DNA of 32,009 nt from Klebsiella pneumoniae (GTDB lineage: Bacteria; Pseudomonadota; Gammaproteobacteria; Pseudomonadales; CAMAPQ01), in contig CAMAPQ010000028.1 of the NCBI GenBank assembly GCA_945860125.1, forward strand, positions 1-32,009, in the 5' to 3' direction. This document shows, in pieces, positions 12,788 to 32,009 of the stretch. Below the pieces are notes generated by a model that saw nothing but the letters and a program-made list of their open reading frames with translations, did not search any database and had not been told where the DNA came from. A program made the position numbers and the translations under genes. The stretch's first letter is position 1, and every line of letters starts with the position of its first letter.

Positions 12788-14239
12788 ATGGAAGAAGAAC
12801 GCAATAAGCAGCCGACCGCGTTACAGCAAGCTGCCAATCAAAAAAATGCTCAACTACTCATTATTGATGATGATTTTTTAATATCTGATACGTTGGGGTT
12901 TTTTTTAGCCCCTTATTTTAAGGTTTCTATTGCCAGCAACCCGCTAGAAGCTAATGCGCTACTAGGCGCAAAAATACCATTCGATATTGCTTTAGTTGAC
13001 TTAGGTTTACCGCCCAATCCTCACCAGCCTGATGAAGGCTTTAAACTCATTGAAAAGCTCATTCAGCATCATAACAATATTAAAATTGTTATTTTATCCG
13101 GACAAAATGACGAAAAAAACATTGCTTACGCGCTATCTTTAGGGGCAGTTGATTTTATTGCAAAGCCTGCGGATCCTAAAAAAATACTCGCAATACTCAT
13201 GCAGCAATGGCAAATAACGGTACTTGAAAACCTGACTAAAGATAATGAAAAAAATAAAATTATTGGTCAAAGCCGTGCAATTTTGCAAGTTCAAAAATTA
13301 ATTGAGCAATTTGCAGATCTGTGCTTCCCACTCCTCATCGAAGGCGAATCTGGCACGGGAAAAGAACTTGTTGCACAATCATTGCATCTAAATTCTAAGC
13401 GCGCAAAAGAACCTTATCTTGCCATAAACTGTGCTGCTCTTAGCCCAGAACTACTTGAGTCGCAATTATTTGGCCATAAAAAAGGCGCTTTTTCAGGTGC
13501 TATTCAAGATCATATTGGTTTTTTTGAAAAAGCGAAAAATGGCACTTTATTTTTAGATGAAATTGGTGAAATGCCGCTTGGTTTACAAGCAAAATTATTA
13601 CGCGTGTTAGAAAACGGTGAGTTTTATCCCGTGGGTTCTAGCGATACTAAAATAGCTCTATGTCGCGTTGTTGCCGCTACTAACCGATCCTTACACTCAC
13701 AAGTGAAGCAGAATGATTTTCGTATTGATTTATATCATCGCCTGGGCACATTAGAAATTCAATTACCCCCACTCAGAGACAGAGAAAACGACTGGCTACT
13801 GTTATTTTATTATTTGGCAAAAAAACTAGAAGCGCAAATCGGTACCGTTTGCTTAAGCGAAGAAGCGCAGCTTTTTTTAAGCCATTATAGTTTTCCAGGT
13901 AATGTCCGTGAATTGAAAAATATTGTCATAAGACTAGGCTCTAAGCATAAGAATCAACTGATTAAGAAAGAACATTTAATTAATGAAATAGAGCCTCAAC
14001 AAAACATAAGTCATGCCTCTTTAGAAGCAGTCATTAATGAAAACAGCATTAAATATAAAATAGAACAGGGAATATTTGATCTTAATCAGTCTTTAGTTGA
14101 CTTTGAGAAAACCTGTATTGAGCTTGCAATGAAAATAAATAATCAAAACTTAAGCCAAGCAGCACGAGACTTGCATATTAATCGATCAACGTTACACAGC
14201 AGAATACAAAAATATGACGGCAATCATCATGAGAAGTAA
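12788..14239 (+). CDS. Sigma-54 response regulator, PrsR-like
   Basis: A 483-aa enhancer-binding protein that would activate sigma-54 promoters when phosphorylated. The N-terminal receiver has LLIIDDD, the acceptor Asp71 in [12 protein letters not shown] and a conserved Lys in FIAKPADP. The AAA+ domain (about 155-385) has GESGTGKE, then GAFSGA where most family members have [24 protein letters not shown] and a [10 protein letters not shown] end. The C-terminal HTH (about 450-478) reads [22 protein letters not shown]. The LGLPPxP...EGF receiver pattern is that of PrsR/PEP-CTERM-box regulators as I remember them. It is 9 bp before mshM and so heads the pilus operon. A PrsK-like kinase lies at 27396-29153. 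Confidence 0.88.
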
Positions 14240-14248
14240 GGAGTTACG

Positions 14249-15106
14249 ATGTATCTTAAGCATTTTGGATTGACAAAAATGCCCTTTCAGATCACGCCAG
14301 ACACTGATTTTTTCTATGGCGGTGGCGAAAGAAGCACGATTTTAGAAGCACTTAAATACACCATATTAAGTGGCGAAGGCATTATAAAAGTCATTGGTGA
14401 AGTAGGCTGTGGTAAAACAATGCTTTGCCGCATGCTGTCACAGAGTTTGCCGCTTTCTGTTGAAATTGTTTATATTGCCAATCCTTCGCTATCACCTGAA
14501 AATATTCTGCATTCTATTGCACATGAAATGCATATTATGGTTTCAGCGACCACCCCTAAAATTGAAGTGATGCAAAGAATCACTTCGCATTTGGTAGAAA
14601 GCCATGCGAAGCATAAACGCGTTGTCGTTTTTGTGGAAGAGGCGCAAAGCATGCCACTTGAAACACTTGAAGAAATACGTCTGCTCTCTAATCTTGAAAC
14701 ACAACAAAGCAAATTAATGCAGATTATTTTATTTGGCCAGCCTGAATTAGATATGAAGCTTTCCGTTCCATCTATTCGTCAATTAAGAGAAAGAATTGCT
14801 TTTGGTTTTGAAGTCTGCCCTCTTAATGCTAAAGAAAGCCTTGAATATTTAAACTTTAGAATGCATATGGCAGGCTATAGAGGCAGCACGCTTTTTGATA
14901 AAAAGCAGGCTGTATTAATTCATCAATACACTAAAGGCTTAACACGTCGTATCAATATACTATGCAATAAAGTGCTTATTCTTGCCTATACCGCCAATAG
15001 ATTTGAGATTACAACAAAAGATATTAAAACAGCCGCAAATGATTGTGATTTTATTAAAAAGAATAATAGCTTTTCACGCGGCTTAAAATGGGAATTTATC
15101 AAGTAA
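14249..15106 (+). CDS. mshM: MSHA-type pilus ATPase MshM (ExeA/GspA family)
   Basis: A 285-aa AAA+ ATPase of the ExeA/GspA/MshM family, which helps place or assemble the secretin. The opening YLKHFGLTKMPFQITPDTDFFYGG is the family signature. Walker A is GEVGCGKT (about residues 50-57), Walker B is VVVFVEEAQSM, and LRERIAFGFEVCPL with LTRRINILCNKVLI closes the AAA fold. Unlike ExeA/GspA it has no C-terminal peptidoglycan-binding domain or membrane segment, which is the MshM form. It has a good ribosome-binding site (AAGGAG) and sits 9 bp after the regulator and 12 bp before the secretin gene. Confidence 0.88.
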   Translation: MYLKHFGLTKMPFQITPDTDFFYGGGERSTILEALKYTILSGEGIIKVIGEVGCGKTMLCRMLSQSLPLSVEIVYIANPSLSPENILHSIAHEMHIMVSATTPKIEVMQRITSHLVESHAKHKRVVVFVEEAQSMPLETLEEIRLLSNLETQQSKLMQIILFGQPELDMKLSVPSIRQLRERIAFGFEVCPLNAKESLEYLNFRMHMAGYRGSTLFDKKQAVLIHQYTKGLTRRINILCNKVLILAYTANRFEITTKDIKTAANDCDFIKKNNSFSRGLKWEFIK

Positions 15107-15118
15107 AGGGCTTAAGTA

Positions 15119-16960
15119 ATGGAATACCCGATAAAGGAATCTACAGATAAAAAGCAATGGCTAATTTTTGCTTTTCTATGCTTTTTGCCCAGCTGTAATA
15201 CCGTTCATAACAAACCAACCACGTCTGAAACGCTCATTACGTCTTCACAAAAAGCAATGGCAGAGCCTATTCCTTCTGTTATAAATTCCATGAATCTTAT
15301 TCCTGCGCCCATGACTTATAAGAAAGAGCAAACCTACACGGTTGTCGTTCAGAACGTGCCAGTGCGTGAATTGCTGTTTTCACTTGCACGCGATGCTCAA
15401 ATGAATCTGGATATTGATGCAGACATTTATGGTGATGTAACACTAAACGCGGTAAGTCAAACGTTACCTAATATTTTGCAGCGCATTACAGATCTTGTTC
15501 CTATTCGCTACCAGGTGACACCACAAAGCTTAAAGGTACAGTGGGATTCCGCCTATCTTAAAATTTATCGTATTAATTATTTAAATATGAGTCGTGAATC
15601 ACAAAGCGCCGTTAAAATTTCGACGACGGTTAGCTCAACAGGTGGTAGTTCAGATTCTTCTCAGGATAATTTATCAGATACAGAAGTAAAAAATACTTCT
15701 AACAATTTATTTTGGGCGACATTAGAAGGTAATCTTAATAATATTTTAAAAGCCACGACAGTAAAAAAACCAGCAAAAGAATCAGCGATCTTATTGGTTG
15801 AACAAAACACAAAAAATAATGCTGCAGTTACAGAAAAACCAGCACAGAGTGAAGGAATAAACACAAAAGAAGACGTAAAAAATAGCACATCAAATAATAA
15901 TGAAGGTGAAAAAAATAAAATCAATGAGGCTGAAACAACTCAAGATAGCCCAAAAACAGAAACTAAAACAAGCGCAAAAACAACAGCCAATACGGATGAC
16001 AAAAAAAGTACCAGTAGCGCGGCGGCAACAGAAGTTGCCTCGCCTATTATTGTCAATAAAGAAAGTGGCATCGTCGCTATTTTTGCAACGCAGAAACAGC
16101 ATAAATCTATTCAGACTTTTTTAGATGAAGTATTAAGCAGTGCGATGCGTCAGGTTTTAATTGAAGCAACGGTTGTTGAAGTAAGTTTAAGTGATGAATA
16201 TCAATCAGGTGTTGATTGGCGACTTATCCAACCTGCGGGTGAAGCTGCTATAAATAGTAATACTAACCCGACTGGCTTTAACCTTTTTAATGAGTTTAGC
16301 AATGGGAATTTAAGTAGCGCACCCCACGCGCTCCTTAAATTAACCGATACAGCGATAGATAAAAAAAGATTAGACGTCACCATTAAAGCACTTGAAACAT
16401 TTGGTGATGTAAAAGTTATGTCACGTCCAAAACTCACCGCAATTAATAATCAAACTTCATTACTTAAAGTTATTGATAACATCATCTATTTTGCAATTAC
16501 CTCTGATAAAACAGTGACAGATAATGTTGTTGAGATCGATGTCACCTCAGAAATAAAAAGTGTACCTGTAGGGCTTGTCATGTCTGTCACGCCGTTTATA
16601 GATGAATTTGAAAATGTTACTTTAAATATTCGCCCTACTATTTCAAGAATTATTGATACCGCGCTTGACCCTACACCAACGCTTGCAGAAGCGGGCATTA
16701 CTAATAAAATCCCCATTGTTCAAGTACGTGAAGTGGAATCATTATTAACCGTAAAAAGCGGTGAAACAGCGGTGATTGGCGGTTTAATGCAGGATGATAA
16801 TCGAAAAGAATCTGTCGGCATTCCTTTTTTAGGAAAAATTCCTTATTTGGGCAGATTGTTTAGTTATAAAGAAGACATTAAACGAAAAACAGAACTCGTT
16901 ATTTTTATTCGCCCAGTTATTGTTGAAGAACAAGCACGTCCTCAACAAAATTTATTTTGA
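15119..16960 (+). CDS. mshL: Secretin MshL (outer-membrane pilus channel)
   Basis: The secretin forms the outer-membrane ring through which the pilus passes. This 613-aa protein opens with a lipoprotein-like signal ending LPSC, with Cys26 as probable lipid site; the Pro before Ser is unusual for a lipobox. An STN/N0-like domain follows (YTVVVQNVPVRELLFSLARDAQMN). The C-terminal secretin domain has ATVVEVSLSDEYQSGVDWRL, VPVGLVMSVTPFID, IRPTISRI, VREVESLLTVKSGETAVIGGL and GIPFLGKIPYLGRLFSYK. Between them is a low-complexity stretch (about residues 230-307) rich in Lys, Thr, Asn, Glu and Ser that looks like a flexible insert. The order mshM-mshL-mshN differs from Vibrio, where mshL precedes mshM. 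Confidence 0.92.
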   Translation: MEYPIKESTDKKQWLIFAFLCFLPSCNTVHNKPTTSETLITSSQKAMAEPIPSVINSMNLIPAPMTYKKEQTYTVVVQNVPVRELLFSLARDAQMNLDIDADIYGDVTLNAVSQTLPNILQRITDLVPIRYQVTPQSLKVQWDSAYLKIYRINYLNMSRESQSAVKISTTVSSTGGSSDSSQDNLSDTEVKNTSNNLFWATLEGNLNNILKATTVKKPAKESAILLVEQNTKNNAAVTEKPAQSEGINTKEDVKNSTSNNNEGEKNKINEAETTQDSPKTETKTSAKTTANTDDKKSTSSAAATEVASPIIVNKESGIVAIFATQKQHKSIQTFLDEVLSSAMRQVLIEATVVEVSLSDEYQSGVDWRLIQPAGEAAINSNTNPTGFNLFNEFSNGNLSSAPHALLKLTDTAIDKKRLDVTIKALETFGDVKVMSRPKLTAINNQTSLLKVIDNIIYFAITSDKTVTDNVVEIDVTSEIKSVPVGLVMSVTPFIDEFENVTLNIRPTISRIIDTALDPTPTLAEAGITNKIPIVQVREVESLLTVKSGETAVIGGLMQDDNRKESVGIPFLGKIPYLGRLFSYKEDIKRKTELVIFIRPVIVEEQARPQQNLF

Positions 16961-18729: not shown

Positions 18730-20928
18730 ATGAACAATGAAACTAATCCAAAATTACAAGCCAATGAAATCCCAATGAGCAGAGGAATCATCACTAAAAA
18801 TCAACGTCTTAGTACTATTGGCGAATATTTTCTTGCAAAGAAAATTATCACTAAAGAACAGCTACTTATTGCAATTGAACAACAAAAAAAAACAAACTCT
18901 TCTTTATCAATGCTGGTTGTTGAGCTGGGCTTTGTTCAAGAAACTATTTTATGTAATACTTTAGGAGAGCTATTTGGGGTCAAGATAATAGTTGACTTAA
19001 AATTAATCACACCACAACCAGATGCAATAAGACTCATCGCTAAAAATACTGCGATTCAATTCAATGTTTTACCTATAGCCTATTATCATTTAGAAAAAAA
19101 ACTTGAACTTGCGATGCCAGAGATATATAGCGAGGCAGTTTTAAAAAAAATTCCTGCTATTTTTGAACAAGAAATTGAGATAATCCCCATTCTCACCAGT
19201 AGAAATGAGATAAAAAAATCTATTGATCGTTTTTATAATCCCCCTAAAAAAAAGATGGGAGACCAACTAATTGAAAAAGGACTGGTAACAAAAGATCAAA
19301 TTGATATTGCCTTGAGCGAACAGAAAAAAACAGGCTTTGCACTTGGCAGACTTCTCGTTGAATTAGGGTTTGTCAGTGAATCCGTCATTCGCGACATGTT
19401 AGGTGAAACCTTTGGTACACAAATCCTCGATTTAAAAGCAATTATTCCTGATCCTGAAGCGATTAAATTTATCCCAAAAGAGATTGCTTTAAGATTTAAT
19501 GTTGTTCCTATTGTTTATCATCGCAGCCTAAAAACATTAGATGTGGCTATGTCAGATGTCCATGATCTTATTGTGCTCGATAAAATACGTTCACTGCTTG
19601 ATCTTGAAATAGAGATTAACCCCATTCTTTCTGGTGAAAGCGAGCTTAGATCATCTGTTGATCGATTTTATGGTTATGAAATGTCAATAGATGGCATTAT
19701 CAAAGAGCTTGAAACCGGCATTGTGGACTATGCCAGCTTAAAAAATGAAGCGGAATATAGTCAGCCGCTGGTAAGGCTTGTGAACTCTATTTTAACCGAT
19801 GCCGTAAAAAGAGGCGCATCAGACATTCACTTTGAGCCTGAAGAACGCTTTTTACGTCTACGCTATCGTATTGATGGTGTCATGCGTCAAATTCGTAGTT
19901 TGCCTAAAGATTATTGGTCACCCATGACAGTACGTCTTAAAGTCATTTCCAATATGAATATTACGGAAACACGCGCCGCACAAGATGGCAGAATTAGCTT
20001 AAAAGTCAGTGGTCGACAAGTTGATTTCAGGGCGGCAAGCCAACCGACAAAATGGGGCGAAAATATTGTTCTTCGTATTTTAGATCGCGAAAAATCACTG
20101 GTGCCCTTAGAAAATATGGGCTTATTTGCAGATAATTTACAACTTCTAAAAACAATGATGGCGCGCCCTGAGGGGATTATCTTAGTTACAGGCCCCACTG
20201 GCTCAGGAAAAACCACCACTCTTTATTCAATGCTCAACTTTAGAAAATCTATTGCGATTAATATCATGACATTGGAAGACCCCATTGAATATCCCATGGA
20301 TTTAATTCGCCAAACAGATTTAAGTGAAACGACCCGCATGGATTTTGCTTCAGGCATTAAATCATTAATGCGGCAGGATCCTGACGTCATTCTTATTGGC
20401 GAAATTAGAGATGAAGAAACCGCTCAAATGGCTTGCCGAGCGGCAATGACAGGCCATCAAGTTTTTGCGACTCTACATACTAATTCTGCACTCGGTGCTA
20501 TTCCAAGACTTAAAAATATTGGCGTTAAACCAGATATTTTAGGTGGTAATATCATAGGTTCCATTGGGCAACGATTACTAAGAAAAGTATGTTCTGCCTG
20601 TAAAATCGCTAAAAAGCCCGATGATACTGAGAAAAAACTTTTAGGGCTTGCGCTCACAGATAATGAACAGATTATCTACGAAGCGAAAGGGTGTGATAAG
20701 TGTGAGTTCATTGGTTACAAAGGCAGAATTTCTATTCTTGAGATTTGTAAATTTGATGCAGGCATGGAAGCACTGGTATCTGCGGATGTGAGCTTAGGTG
20801 AAATTAAAGAGTATGCTATTAAACATGGATACAAAATGCTTGCTGATGATGGGTTACGTCGTGTTTTATCTGGCGATACTTCGATTAGTGAAGTCGCACG
20901 CGTCGTCGATTTAACGGATAGAAAATAA
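18730..20928 (+). CDS. mshE: Pilus assembly ATPase MshE with two MshEN domains
   Basis: The motor ATPase for pilus extension, a GspE/PilB homologue of 732 aa. Most relatives have one MshEN domain; here two lie in tandem (about 26-170 and 173-315), each ending in an SIDRFY or SVDRFYG element. The second has the 24-5-24 motif layout of the c-di-GMP-binding MshEN fold (KMGDQLIEKGLV... at 175-198; ALGRLLVELGFV... at 204-227). The first keeps the spacing but lacks several motif residues. The ATPase part has SDIHFEPEE, Walker A GPTGSGKTTT, Asp box, Walker B VILIGEIRDEETA, His box TGHQVFATLHTNSA and two CxxC pairs (CSAC, CDKC) for zinc. It overlaps mshG by one base. Confidence 0.93.
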   Translation: MNNETNPKLQANEIPMSRGIITKNQRLSTIGEYFLAKKIITKEQLLIAIEQQKKTNSSLSMLVVELGFVQETILCNTLGELFGVKIIVDLKLITPQPDAIRLIAKNTAIQFNVLPIAYYHLEKKLELAMPEIYSEAVLKKIPAIFEQEIEIIPILTSRNEIKKSIDRFYNPPKKKMGDQLIEKGLVTKDQIDIALSEQKKTGFALGRLLVELGFVSESVIRDMLGETFGTQILDLKAIIPDPEAIKFIPKEIALRFNVVPIVYHRSLKTLDVAMSDVHDLIVLDKIRSLLDLEIEINPILSGESELRSSVDRFYGYEMSIDGIIKELETGIVDYASLKNEAEYSQPLVRLVNSILTDAVKRGASDIHFEPEERFLRLRYRIDGVMRQIRSLPKDYWSPMTVRLKVISNMNITETRAAQDGRISLKVSGRQVDFRAASQPTKWGENIVLRILDREKSLVPLENMGLFADNLQLLKTMMARPEGIILVTGPTGSGKTTTLYSMLNFRKSIAINIMTLEDPIEYPMDLIRQTDLSETTRMDFASGIKSLMRQDPDVILIGEIRDEETAQMACRAAMTGHQVFATLHTNSALGAIPRLKNIGVKPDILGGNIIGSIGQRLLRKVCSACKIAKKPDDTEKKLLGLALTDNEQIIYEAKGCDKCEFIGYKGRISILEICKFDAGMEALVSADVSLGEIKEYAIKHGYKMLADDGLRRVLSGDTSISEVARVVDLTDRK

Positions 20929-26371: not shown

Positions 26372-27214
26372 ATGAAGGAGATCGAAGTCAGGCTTATTAA
26401 AAATAAAAAATCTGGTTTTACATTACTGGAAATGGCTGTTGTTATGGCAATAATGGGTATTTTGCTAATGGGATTGGTATCACCTTTTTCAGCACAAAAA
26501 GAAAGTGAAAATATTTCACGTACAGATAAGCAGCTTAACGAAATTAAAGATGCAATTATGGGTTTTTTAAGAGCACAAGGCAGACTACCTTGCCCTGCTT
26601 TTCCAACCATTAATCCCGCTCTTAGTGGCCGCGAAAATGTGGGGGCAAATACTTGCCTAAATGCCGCTAATCAAGTTTTTCAACATGGTTTTGTGCCAGG
26701 CAATACCTTAGGTTTAAAAGGTACCTATAATGCCGATGGCTTATTATTAGATCCTTGGAATAACCCTTATCGTTACTCCATCACACGCTCAAATGGCAAT
26801 GGCGGTGGGAAATGGGATTTTATTGATATTGCAGAAATGAGAGCCGTGGGCATTAATAACTTACTAACGAACAATCCTATTCTAGTCTGCGCGGTCGCAA
26901 GCCCTAATGCTGTTGACTGTAATGCGCCTGCGGGTAATTCACCTATTGTGAGCGCCATTCCGCTGGTTTTCTTTTCAATGGGTAAGAACTGGGAAAATCT
27001 CACTTCACCTAATCAGCTGGAAAATGCAGGCGAAACAGGTGCTAACATCGCAAGTACCGCAACCGCTTTAACATACCCTATTGCAACGGATGATACGTTT
27101 GCTTCATCGGTTAGAAGTGGTGCAAACCCTAACACCACCTTTGATGATCTTGTCTACTGGATTTCACCTAATGAAATTTATTCGGCGTTATATCAAGCAG
27201 GGCAATTACCTTAA
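26372..27214 (+). CDS. Prepilin-like minor pilin with LPCP motif
   Basis: A 280-aa type IV pilin-like protein. The leader is 14 residues, cleaved at KKSG/FTLLEMAVVMAIMGILL, with Glu at +5 of the mature protein. The hydrophobic helix is followed by DKQLNEIKDAIMGFLRAQGRLPCPAF, then GLLLDPWNNPYRYSITRSNGNGGGKWDF and two Cys in ILVCAVASPNAVDC. The LPCP segment in the same place relative to the membrane helix recalls the preceding gene. It begins 2 bp after that gene, with no ribosome-binding site of its own, so it is probably translated by coupling. It is likely a minor pilin that primes or caps the fibre; the role is inference. Repeats follow its stop. Confidence 0.82.
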   Translation: MKEIEVRLIKNKKSGFTLLEMAVVMAIMGILLMGLVSPFSAQKESENISRTDKQLNEIKDAIMGFLRAQGRLPCPAFPTINPALSGRENVGANTCLNAANQVFQHGFVPGNTLGLKGTYNADGLLLDPWNNPYRYSITRSNGNGGGKWDFIDIAEMRAVGINNLLTNNPILVCAVASPNAVDCNAPAGNSPIVSAIPLVFFSMGKNWENLTSPNQLENAGETGANIASTATALTYPIATDDTFASSVRSGANPNTTFDDLVYWISPNEIYSALYQAGQLP

Positions 27215-29310: not shown

Positions 29311-30066
29311 ATGTTAAGCACCATTGCACGTTACACGATACTTGAATCTTTAAGAAATAGAATGAGCTTTACCGCACTCTTCTTTTTTATCGTTAGTTTC
29401 TTTATAGCAGAATTTGTGGGATCTTTAGTTTTAACTGAAGCTGTTTTTTTTCAAACGACATTGCTGTCAAGTATGATGCGTACGGTGTCCGTTTTTGTAT
29501 TATCTTTATTTGTTATCTCTTCATGCCTCAAAGAAAGACAAGACAGACAACTTGAACTACTGCTTTCTTTGCCTTTGCATCGCTACCAATATTTGCTGGG
29601 AAAAATAACAGGTTTTTTTGTAATGGCTTTTTTATTAAGCTTTTTTCTCTCTTGGCCTATTTTAGTTTATGGCTATTGGCAAGGAAGCCTTATCTGGTTT
29701 ATATCTCTCTTACTTGAACTAATGATTTGCGCCTCTTTTTGCTTTTTTCTTGTTTTTACATTTCAGCATTTAGTGCCAGCACTTACCGCTTTTTTTATTT
29801 TTTATCTATTATCAAGATCAATGAGTGCCATTCAAAACTTAGCAGAAAATCCGCTTGATATTATTTCTAGTGCAGATCAATTTATGATATTAATCATTAA
29901 AGGCATTAATTTTCTTCTGCCGAATCTTGATCATTTCTGCCAAAGTATTTGGCTCGTGAGTTATCCGGAGTTTTCTATTCTTTTACCACTTTTAAGCGAA
30001 GCATTTTTATATATTTGCTTAATTAATTTAGCAACACTAATTGATTTTTACCGAAAGAATTTATAA
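29311..30066 (+). CDS. ABC-2 type transporter permease
   Basis: A 251-aa inner-membrane protein with six hydrophobic segments in the ABC-2/NosY-like layout. Features are a short N-terminal IARYTILESLRNRMSFTALFFF, a cytoplasmic KERQDRQLELLLSLPLHRYQYLLGK between helices 2 and 3 (the usual ATPase-coupling element), then GFFVMAFLLSFFLSWPILVYGYW and further helices. Such permeases need an ATP-binding partner, and none is in the window. The stop is 4 bp before the next gene's ATG, so the two form a pair. Its presence between the pilus regulator kinase and the pilin genes suggests a role in the pilus or in exporting something related; substrate unknown. Confidence 0.82.
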   Translation: MLSTIARYTILESLRNRMSFTALFFFIVSFFIAEFVGSLVLTEAVFFQTTLLSSMMRTVSVFVLSLFVISSCLKERQDRQLELLLSLPLHRYQYLLGKITGFFVMAFLLSFFLSWPILVYGYWQGSLIWFISLLLELMICASFCFFLVFTFQHLVPALTAFFIFYLLSRSMSAIQNLAENPLDIISSADQFMILIIKGINFLLPNLDHFCQSIWLVSYPEFSILLPLLSEAFLYICLINLATLIDFYRKNL

Positions 30067-30070
30067 AAAA

Positions 30071-30862
30071 ATGAAATTAAAATCATTGAGAATTGAAAAA
30101 AACCCGCAAAGACCACTTTCTAGCGTACCAACTAGCATTATTATTTTATTTATACTCTTTATTATTTTACAAGTTACTTTTTCAATTCAACAAGAAAATA
30201 ACCCAGATAAAATCCCCGCTATGCCACCGGCACTTTCCTTGAACATGGCAAATATTTTTTCACTAGGCGACCCTCTTTTTTTTCAACGAGTGGGACTTTT
30301 ATGGTTACAGCAATATGACAGGCAAAACGGCGAAAGCTTGAGTTACCATGATCTTGACTATTATAAAATTAAAGACTGGCTCACTCTATTTTCTGACTTA
30401 CATCCTTCAAGTGAATATCCTTTCACCTTAGCCGTCAGAGGTTACGCTGTCGTAAATGATAATAAAAAAAGAAAATTAATGTTTGATTGGGTAGAAGAAA
30501 AGTTTCCAGCCTCCCCGCTCACACGCTGGCGATGGCTTGCAGAGAGCATCGTGATCACCAAGCACGCACTCAATAATGCTGAAGACGCAAAAAGAATGGC
30601 TGACTTACTTTATATCCACGCACAAAATCTTGATATTCCTTTTTGGGCTAAAGACTTAAAAATCATTTTAATGGAAGACTTAAATCAAACAGAGTCTCTT
30701 AAAATATTTATTGCAGGCCTAATTGAAAGCGGTGTTATTACCGATGAACGAGAGCGCGGCTATCTAATTAGAAAATTTGAAGCGCTTGATGAAAAAAATA
30801 AAAACGAGCAAAACAAGCCTGCTGCTGAAAACTCATCGCCTGTGCTTAATTCTCAACAGTAA
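30071..30862 (+). CDS. Membrane-anchored helical-repeat protein, unknown
   Basis: A 263-aa protein with a basic N-terminus, one membrane segment (about residues 19-40, TSIIILFILFIILQVTFSI) and an alpha-helical domain outside. Conserved-looking stretches are GLLWLQQYDRQNGESLSYHDLDYYKIKDWLTLFSDLHPSSEYPF and later FPASPLTRWRWLAESIVITKHAL. This LDY..W....LxP..EYP pattern recalls, from memory, an unnamed proteobacterial family with TPR-like repeats often beside ABC permeases and pilin genes. I start at the ATG at 30071, four bases after the permease stop. A TTG at 30041 inside the permease gene is also in frame. Neither has a good ribosome-binding site. The tail is Asn/Lys/Glu rich. Confidence 0.72.
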   Translation: MKLKSLRIEKNPQRPLSSVPTSIIILFILFIILQVTFSIQQENNPDKIPAMPPALSLNMANIFSLGDPLFFQRVGLLWLQQYDRQNGESLSYHDLDYYKIKDWLTLFSDLHPSSEYPFTLAVRGYAVVNDNKKRKLMFDWVEEKFPASPLTRWRWLAESIVITKHALNNAEDAKRMADLLYIHAQNLDIPFWAKDLKIILMEDLNQTESLKIFIAGLIESGVITDERERGYLIRKFEALDEKNKNEQNKPAAENSSPVLNSQQ

Positions 30863-30921
30863 AATTTAGCGATTTCTCATTAACAGCCAAAACAATCAAT
30901 AAGTTACAGCATTTAAACGAA

Positions 30922-30937
30922 TGGCATACTTCATGAA
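30922..30937 (+). promoter_or_regulatory. Weak candidate sigma-54 promoter of the pilin genes
   Basis: TGGCATACTTCATGAA keeps the TGGCA of the -24 box and the spacing to a TG at -12, but the invariant C of the -12 GC is A. It lies 75 bp before the pilin start. The case is strengthened only by the sigma-54 activator in the same locus. Confidence 0.2.
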
Positions 30938-30949
30938 TAATATTATTCA
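30934..30949. promoter_or_regulatory. Perfect 16-bp palindrome upstream of the first pilin gene
   Basis: TGAATAATATTATTCA is its own reverse complement. It lies 63 bp before the pilin ATG, in the only sizeable gap ahead of the pilin genes. It could be an operator; AT-rich palindromes also arise by chance. Confidence 0.4.
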
Positions 30950-31012
30950 ACAAGCGCCAAGCTTCTTAAAATGACCTTCCTTACCACTCAAGCGCACTTC
31001 TGGAGAAAATCA

Positions 31013-31681
31013 ATGACACCAGCCATGACCCATCTTAAAAGTCTTAATCAAAAAGGTTTTACACTTGTTGAAATTGCAATTGTGCTCGTGATTGTAGGCC
31101 TTCTTTTAGGCGGCGTTATGAAAGGACAAGAGCTTATTAACTCAGCCAAAACACGCGCCCTTGTTTCAAAATTAAAATCAGTCGAAGTTGCATGGAACAC
31201 TTTTACAGATCGTTATCAAGCAAAACCAGGTGATTTTAACCAGGCTGTGCGTGATTTAGGGGGGCCAACCGTTAACGGCAATGGAGATGGTTTTGTTTAT
31301 ATAAATGAAGGAAATGATGTATGGAGTCATTTAAGCGCTGCCGGCCTTGTTTCAGGAAATTATGCGGTCGTTGACACCGGCGATCCATGGAATTGCGGCG
31401 GCTGTATGGAGAATGGCTTTAGCCAAACCATGTTTTTAAGCTGGAATAACTGGGGAATGGCGGTGCCGAATGTTTGGAGACACAGACTGTTATCCGGCTA
31501 CATGGTTCCTTCGGTGATTATTTCTGAAGTTGATAAAAAAATGGATGATGGAAAACCTACCACAGGAATAATTGCTCTAAATCTGAGCACACCAGGCGGC
31601 GGACCCTGCTCTAATGGCATAGAGTATCTTTCAACCCAAGCTGCCCAAGAAAACTGTGCTTTTGTTTACGCTGCCTTCTAA
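31013..31681 (+). CDS. Type IV pilin, MshA-like, copy 1
   Basis: A 222-aa prepilin. I start at the ATG at 31013, which has GGAG eight bases upstream and gives a 15-residue leader; the frame is open to 30971. Processing would be at NQKG/FTLVEIAIVLVIVGLLLGGVMKG, with Glu at +5. After the helix come KLKSVEVAWNTFTDRYQAKPGDFNQAV, then GGPTVNGNGDGF, paired Cys in NCGGCMENG, a DDGKPTTG element and a C-terminal Cys pair region (GPCSNG, QENCAF). DDGxPxxG with Cys pairs is common in pilin and pseudopilin heads. The first ~250 bp of this region are repeated at 31761 in the next gene with two base changes. It is probably the major pilin or one of a set. Confidence 0.88.
   Translation: MTPAMTHLKSLNQKGFTLVEIAIVLVIVGLLLGGVMKGQELINSAKTRALVSKLKSVEVAWNTFTDRYQAKPGDFNQAVRDLGGPTVNGNGDGFVYINEGNDVWSHLSAAGLVSGNYAVVDTGDPWNCGGCMENGFSQTMFLSWNNWGMAVPNVWRHRLLSGYMVPSVIISEVDKKMDDGKPTTGIIALNLSTPGGGPCSNGIEYLSTQAAQENCAFVYAAF
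31049..31297 (+). repeat. Direct repeat between the two pilin genes, left copy
   Basis: These 249 bases match 31761-32009 at 247 positions. The two changes are AAC to GAC and ACA to AAA, both altering the protein. The match starts just before the prepilin cleavage site and is still running at the window end. Confidence 0.95.
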
Positions 31682-31727
31682 TCTAGAAAAACAAGCTGAT
31701 GCCGATTTATCGTGAGGAGAAGATCAA

Positions 31728-32009
31728 ATGAGAGAAAGTAAAAGGCTCAATAGCTTAAGGCAAAAAGGTTTTACACTTGTTGAAATTGCAATTGTGCTCG
31801 TGATTGTAGGCCTTCTTTTAGGCGGCGTTATGAAAGGACAAGAGCTTATTAACTCAGCCAAAACACGCGCCCTTGTTTCAAAATTAAAATCAGTCGAAGT
31901 TGCATGGGACACTTTTAAAGATCGTTATCAAGCAAAACCAGGTGATTTTAACCAGGCTGTGCGTGATTTAGGGGGGCCAACCGTTAACGGCAATGGAGAT
32001 GGTTTTGTT
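31728..32009 (+). CDS. Type IV pilin, MshA-like, copy 2 (runs off the window)
   Basis: A second prepilin gene starts 46 bp after the first, with a strong ribosome-binding site (GAGGAGA). The leader MRESKRLNSLRQKG differs from copy 1, but from FTLVE onward the 94 codons visible encode almost the same protein, with only Asn-to-Asp and Thr-to-Lys changes (AWDTFKDRYQAKPGDF). The C-terminal, surface-exposed part is outside the window, so whether the heads differ is unknown. The start is well supported because the leader length and cleavage site fit class III prepilins. Confidence 0.92.
   Translation, partial: MRESKRLNSLRQKGFTLVEIAIVLVIVGLLLGGVMKGQELINSAKTRALVSKLKSVEVAWDTFKDRYQAKPGDFNQAVRDLGGPTVNGNGDGFV
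31761..32009 (+). repeat. Direct repeat between the two pilin genes, right copy
   Basis: This is the partner of 31049-31297 (offset 712 bp, two mismatches in 249). The repeat unit is a whole pilin gene or its 5' half. Confidence 0.95.

Follow-up and report, generated by a model that had tools for sequence, protein, structure and literature searches.

We propose, with a probability of roughly 0.6, that three or more full-type prepilin genes of an MSHA-type pilus are arranged head to tail in an array which was homogenised after an older duplication, and whose copies are used as alternative or mixed subunits; most likely they encode major pilins that evolve in concert and either replace one another or are assembled together. 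The genome assembly amounts to 2.58 Mb in 125 contigs, and the analysed window comprises contig C28 in full (32,009 bases). Two of the copies (G1 and G2) lie at its end, and the third (G3) is located on contig C52 (18,764 bases), its start being 44 nt from the contig end (Table 1). Since the window is a complete contig, the truncation of G2, already pointed out in the preliminary description, is simply the end of C28 at 32009. Counting the copies beyond this end and aligning the 3' halves had been suggested there as checks, and both could be carried out on G3: it is a third, complete copy in the same assembly, and the two complete genes, G1 and G3, diverge after about codon 146.

Table 1. Pilin gene copies, shared segments and neighbouring pilus genes (positions refer to the window unless a contig is given)
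Feature	Position	Strand	Remark
MshL-type secretin	15119..16960	+	TIGR02519 256.6 bits, cut-off 250.2
MshE-like assembly ATPase with MshE-related c-di-GMP-binding motifs	18730..20928	+	NF053729 90.8 bits, cut-off 38
Further prepilin-like gene of the cluster	26372..27214	+	PF07963 34.1 bits
148 nt, G1 upstream region and first codons	30969..31116	+	exact match to the first 148 nt of reverse-complemented C52 (G3)
G1, complete prepilin gene, 222 aa	31013..31681	+	PF07963 N_methyl 30 bits, cut-off 21.2
249-bp block, G1 copy	31049..31297	+	247/249 identical to 31761-32009
G1 3' third, from codon 147, long diverged from G3	31451..31681	+	silent-site step
G1-G2 spacer, 46 nt	31682..31727	+	contains the G2 ribosome-binding-like site
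G2, second prepilin gene, 94 codons visible	31728..32009	+	truncated by the C28 end
249-bp block, G2 copy	31761..32009	+	final 125 nt exact in G3 on C52
G3, third pilin gene, complete, 220 aa	contig C52 18720-18058	minus	

The N-terminal cleavage and methylation motif of type IV prepilins was recognised in all copies: PF07963 and TIGR02532 scored above their cut-offs in both G1 and G3, and the translation of G2 contains the same motif. On the basis of this motif the G1 leader is expected to be cleaved after G15. Each of the three genes possesses a start codon, a prepilin leader and a ribosome-binding-like site, the last identified by eye. An in-frame ATG at 30971 (30971-31012) would lengthen G1 by 14 residues, and due to the identical sequence upstream of G1 and G3 the start assignment is ambiguous for either gene. 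Mature G1 was modelled with AlphaFold2 from the single sequence, and the model was set aside (mean pLDDT 38.8). Searches of the own genome with the 961-base region, the G1 protein, the G3 region, the spacer and the G1 upstream sequence, which would miss fragments dropped from the assembly, revealed no copies beyond G1-G3, and the G1-G2 spacer had no second occurrence in the assembly.

Judging from the gene content, the pilin array adjoins an MSHA-type pilus system, since both an MshL secretin and an MshE ATPase are encoded beside the pilins; for the ATPase of the cluster the PilB and GspE equivalogs stayed below their own cut-offs. As regards a major pilin of the MshA type, none of the pilin-specific equivalogs exceeded its cut-off and only general prepilin models passed. 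Before the secretin gene there are a sigma-54 type response regulator (12788-14239) and an ATPase (14249-15106) resembling PEP-CTERM/XrtA-associated proteins, below the curated cut-offs. G1 is preceded (29311-30862) by two genes, one for an ABC-2 permease and one without a known family, and the same arrangement exists in another genome (G021, L004 15-2977), where relatives of the permease (37% over 127 residues) and of the 273-aa protein (36% over 231) are followed by a single pilin and then by an ABC ATPase-like gene. The 273-aa protein (30041-30862) matched neither a Pfam nor an NCBIfam model at E 0.01; it is conserved beside a pilin in G021 and also in G061 (36% in the latter). In G061 the contig stops soon after the pilin (17,473 vs 17,415), thus additional copies are possible there.

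The proposed homogenisation of the copies is based on the silent sites of G1 and G3. In codons 1-147 there are 1.83 silent changes in 97.5 sites, and in the whole gene 25.92 in 149.3 sites, so that by difference codons 148-222 account for about 24 in 52 sites. The best silent change point was found after codon 146, with a likelihood gain that was reached by none of 5000 codon shuffles, and among codons whose first two bases agree, the fourfold sites differed at 1 of 63 versus 5 of 20 positions (p = 0.003). For the amino-acid-changing differences the best single change point was codon 95, the shuffling being applied to the silent change only, and silent change remains low past codon 95. Near-identity at silent sites could not be produced by protein-level selection alone; recent exchange over the front two-thirds of the gene can produce it. 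A single recent duplication of the whole gene was rejected as the origin of the G1/G3 likeness, since it does not account for the step near codon 146. In a comparison with 91 further reading frames of pilin type, drawn from the examined loci, G1 and G3 were mutual closest matches in all three segments tested; their 3' thirds share 57-60% identity, the next best by score being 34% for G1 and 42% for G3, therefore the divergent last third fits old paralogy and not a distant donor. According to the proposed model, duplication of the pilin gene would have come first, and later homologous recombination, in the form of gene conversion or unequal crossing-over, would have re-homogenised the upstream region, the leader, the helix and the front of the head, leaving the last third different. 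The copies might then be expressed as alternative or mixed major subunits, in which the assembly helix is constant and the exposed head differs.

The near-identical 5' block of G1 and G2 was described earlier, and the alignment was reproduced here: 247 of 249 positions match, which is beyond chance (counting from the word shared at 31055 and 31767, 241 of 243 positions are equal, and 6 identical bases precede it). Both differences, A/G at position 142 of the block and C/A at position 152, are non-synonymous (N62D and T65K), and the leaders and the spacer do differ, in agreement with the preliminary description. The visible part of G2 falls within the near-identical G1/G3 group. In the 243-nt block present in all three copies, 2 sites differ between G1 and G2, 4 between G2 and G3 and 6 between G1 and G3, and at 5 of the 6 variable sites the amino acid is altered. 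No available outgroup is near enough to polarise these sites. Since four of them set G3 apart from the other two copies and two set G1 apart, a mosaic history is not needed to explain them. As regards the earlier choice between recent duplication and gene conversion, G1 and G2 alone cannot separate the two; it is the G1/G3 step that speaks for recombination between copies.

Other pilin pairs served as a control. A profile was built from six pilins (G1, G2, G3 and three relatives) and applied at E <= 1e-10; it matched in 12 of 390 genomes of the order and in 91 of 369 genomes of the class, the genome under study (G000) being included in both counts. Two or more matches occurred in 17 of the 91, again including G000, with at most 7 candidates scored per genome. 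Thirteen of the other 16 multi-match genomes were taken as control loci and the pairs were comparable in 10. Over the first 30 codons from the motif the silent divergence of these 10 pairs was 0.21-0.73, compared with 0.04 for G1/G3, and near-zero silent divergence was absent from every segment of them, hence it is not a general constraint of the pilin family; the pairs are partly non-independent (G499, G615 and G713 belong to one genus, G399 and G551 to another) and several are distant paralogues. A family-wide nucleotide constraint was accordingly rejected as the only explanation for the 5' identity. In three control pairs the 5' silent divergence was below that of the later segments (G551, 0.21 rising to 0.50; G543, 0.33 at the start and then at least 0.69; G601, 0.37 and then at least 0.68), so that a weak 5' effect in the family is possible. 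Paired pilins do recur in the family; a step as sharp as this at the silent sites is uncommon here, but perhaps not unique. The pilin search of 55 other genomes covered the same order only, none of them being of the same genus or family, and a contig scan of the named relatives gave one weak match (50 residues, 41%). In G063 two matches lie on contig ends (L049 1488-1628 and L043 1-141) that share 141 identical nt inside a pilin gene; it was not accepted as a second array, for the overlap may reflect either a single split gene or a repeat left unresolved.

The arrangement of the three copies has to be deduced from the contig ends. G3 contains the final 125 nt of the window without a mismatch, and C28 ends exactly at the point where the G1/G3 identity ceases; together with the end of C52 this looks like the pattern that a short-read assembler leaves at a repeat it cannot resolve. 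Given the orientation of both contig ends, the simplest order would be G1-G2-(gap)-G3, head-to-tail, with C28 and C52 as putative neighbours. Synteny was tried as a means of joining them and rejected: the gene beside G3 on C52 was weakly matched in 3 of 7 relatives, never on the contig of the pilin. The ABC ATPase-like gene of G021 was likewise discarded as a closer of the gap, since its best match in the own genome (52%) is on C22, in the interior of the contig and not at its end.

The same ends could be explained by a mixture of strains, in which one strain carries G1-G2 and the other, after a deletion between the direct repeats, has a single gene consisting of the G1 upstream part and a different head, represented by C52. 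C52 opens with the G1 upstream region and closes with another head and flank, a shape that a repeat-mediated deletion would give. A comparable case was seen in G592, where the pilin genes on two contigs (L095 1-1300 and L096 1-900) agree over 102 nt from the beginning of the cut copy, and it indicates that a strain mixture is able to produce a similar picture; the G592 copies are also homologous past the gene and could represent either variants from different strains or a duplication of larger extent. However, four bases in the 5' half of G3 are absent from both G1 and G2, the listed contamination of the genome is 0, and the overlaps of 148 and 125 nt seem to fit no single k-mer length. A strain mixture appears rather improbable, while keeping some weight. 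Another rival is a partial duplication, or else recombination with an allele coming in from elsewhere, which would place newly copied 5' two-thirds onto a different 3' end without repeated conversion; a single recombination event is enough for the silent-site step and the donor could have come from an unsampled close relative, but the mutual best match of the 3' thirds is what resident paralogues would show, and we consider this explanation unlikely.

The suggestion in the preliminary description that pilin subunits are switched as in silent-copy systems is not supported. In Neisseria the pilE/pilS system is defined by donor copies without their own 5' end and start, and every copy in the present assembly has its start and ribosome-binding-like site. 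The G4 motif (four runs of GGG, loops 1-12) was absent from both strands of the window and of C52, the latter covering only 44 nt upstream of G3. Because the three copies are full-type genes and the four-run G4 motif was not found, a silent-cassette system is unsupported. Promoter and terminator scans gave chance-level results only, and the single terminator-like site within 30700-32009 is on the minus strand, likewise at chance level. Antigenic variation with donor and expression copies is very unlikely and not supported by what is seen in the sequence, even though the 5' part is constant and the 3' part variable and codons 1-147 show more amino-acid than silent change (0.067 vs 0.019, one-sided p = 0.056), an excess which is not significant at 0.05 and gives only a hint of possible diversifying selection. 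Instead of an antigen-switching system, for which they are not evidence, the data represent a clear case of ordinary gene-family evolution. It is doubtful, though conceivable, that an MSHA-type array of expressed copies, kept uniform by recombination from the upstream region through leader and helix to the front of the head, could shuffle or swap its distinct C-terminal heads by recombination, without silent cassettes or a G4 trigger.

No report of this pilin array was found in the literature searched, and a paper on Neisseria elongata (PMC3120873) had no bearing on it. The nearest known systems are compared here. In Legionella pneumophila the paired type IV pilin genes pilA1 and pilA2 differ along the whole protein (about 72% identity), and PilA2 is described as a competence-associated pilin (PMC13170364). 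The likeness consists of two related full pilin genes in one locus; unlike the Legionella pair, the front of G1 and G3 is near-identical at the DNA level with a diverged last third, and an MSHA-type cluster adjoins. In Francisella, a pilA gene with direct repeats on both sides is described, which is lost when the repeats mediate its deletion (PMC2941502). Both cases have adjacent pilin genes with direct repeats that could recombine, but here the repeats span much of the pilin gene itself, no second strain was found and no deletion was observed. For Neisseria, a G4 element is described as required for pilin variation (PMC3547852, PMC4023411); a constant 5' part, a variable 3' part and recombination between copies are the shared features, whereas G1-G3 are full-type genes with no G4 motif found.

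The array provides a clean natural example in which silent sites tell recombination from selection among pilin genes. Pilin arrays of such kind break short-read assemblies and conceal copies. If the copies recombine today, they would offer a simple model for pilin diversification without dedicated silent cassettes.
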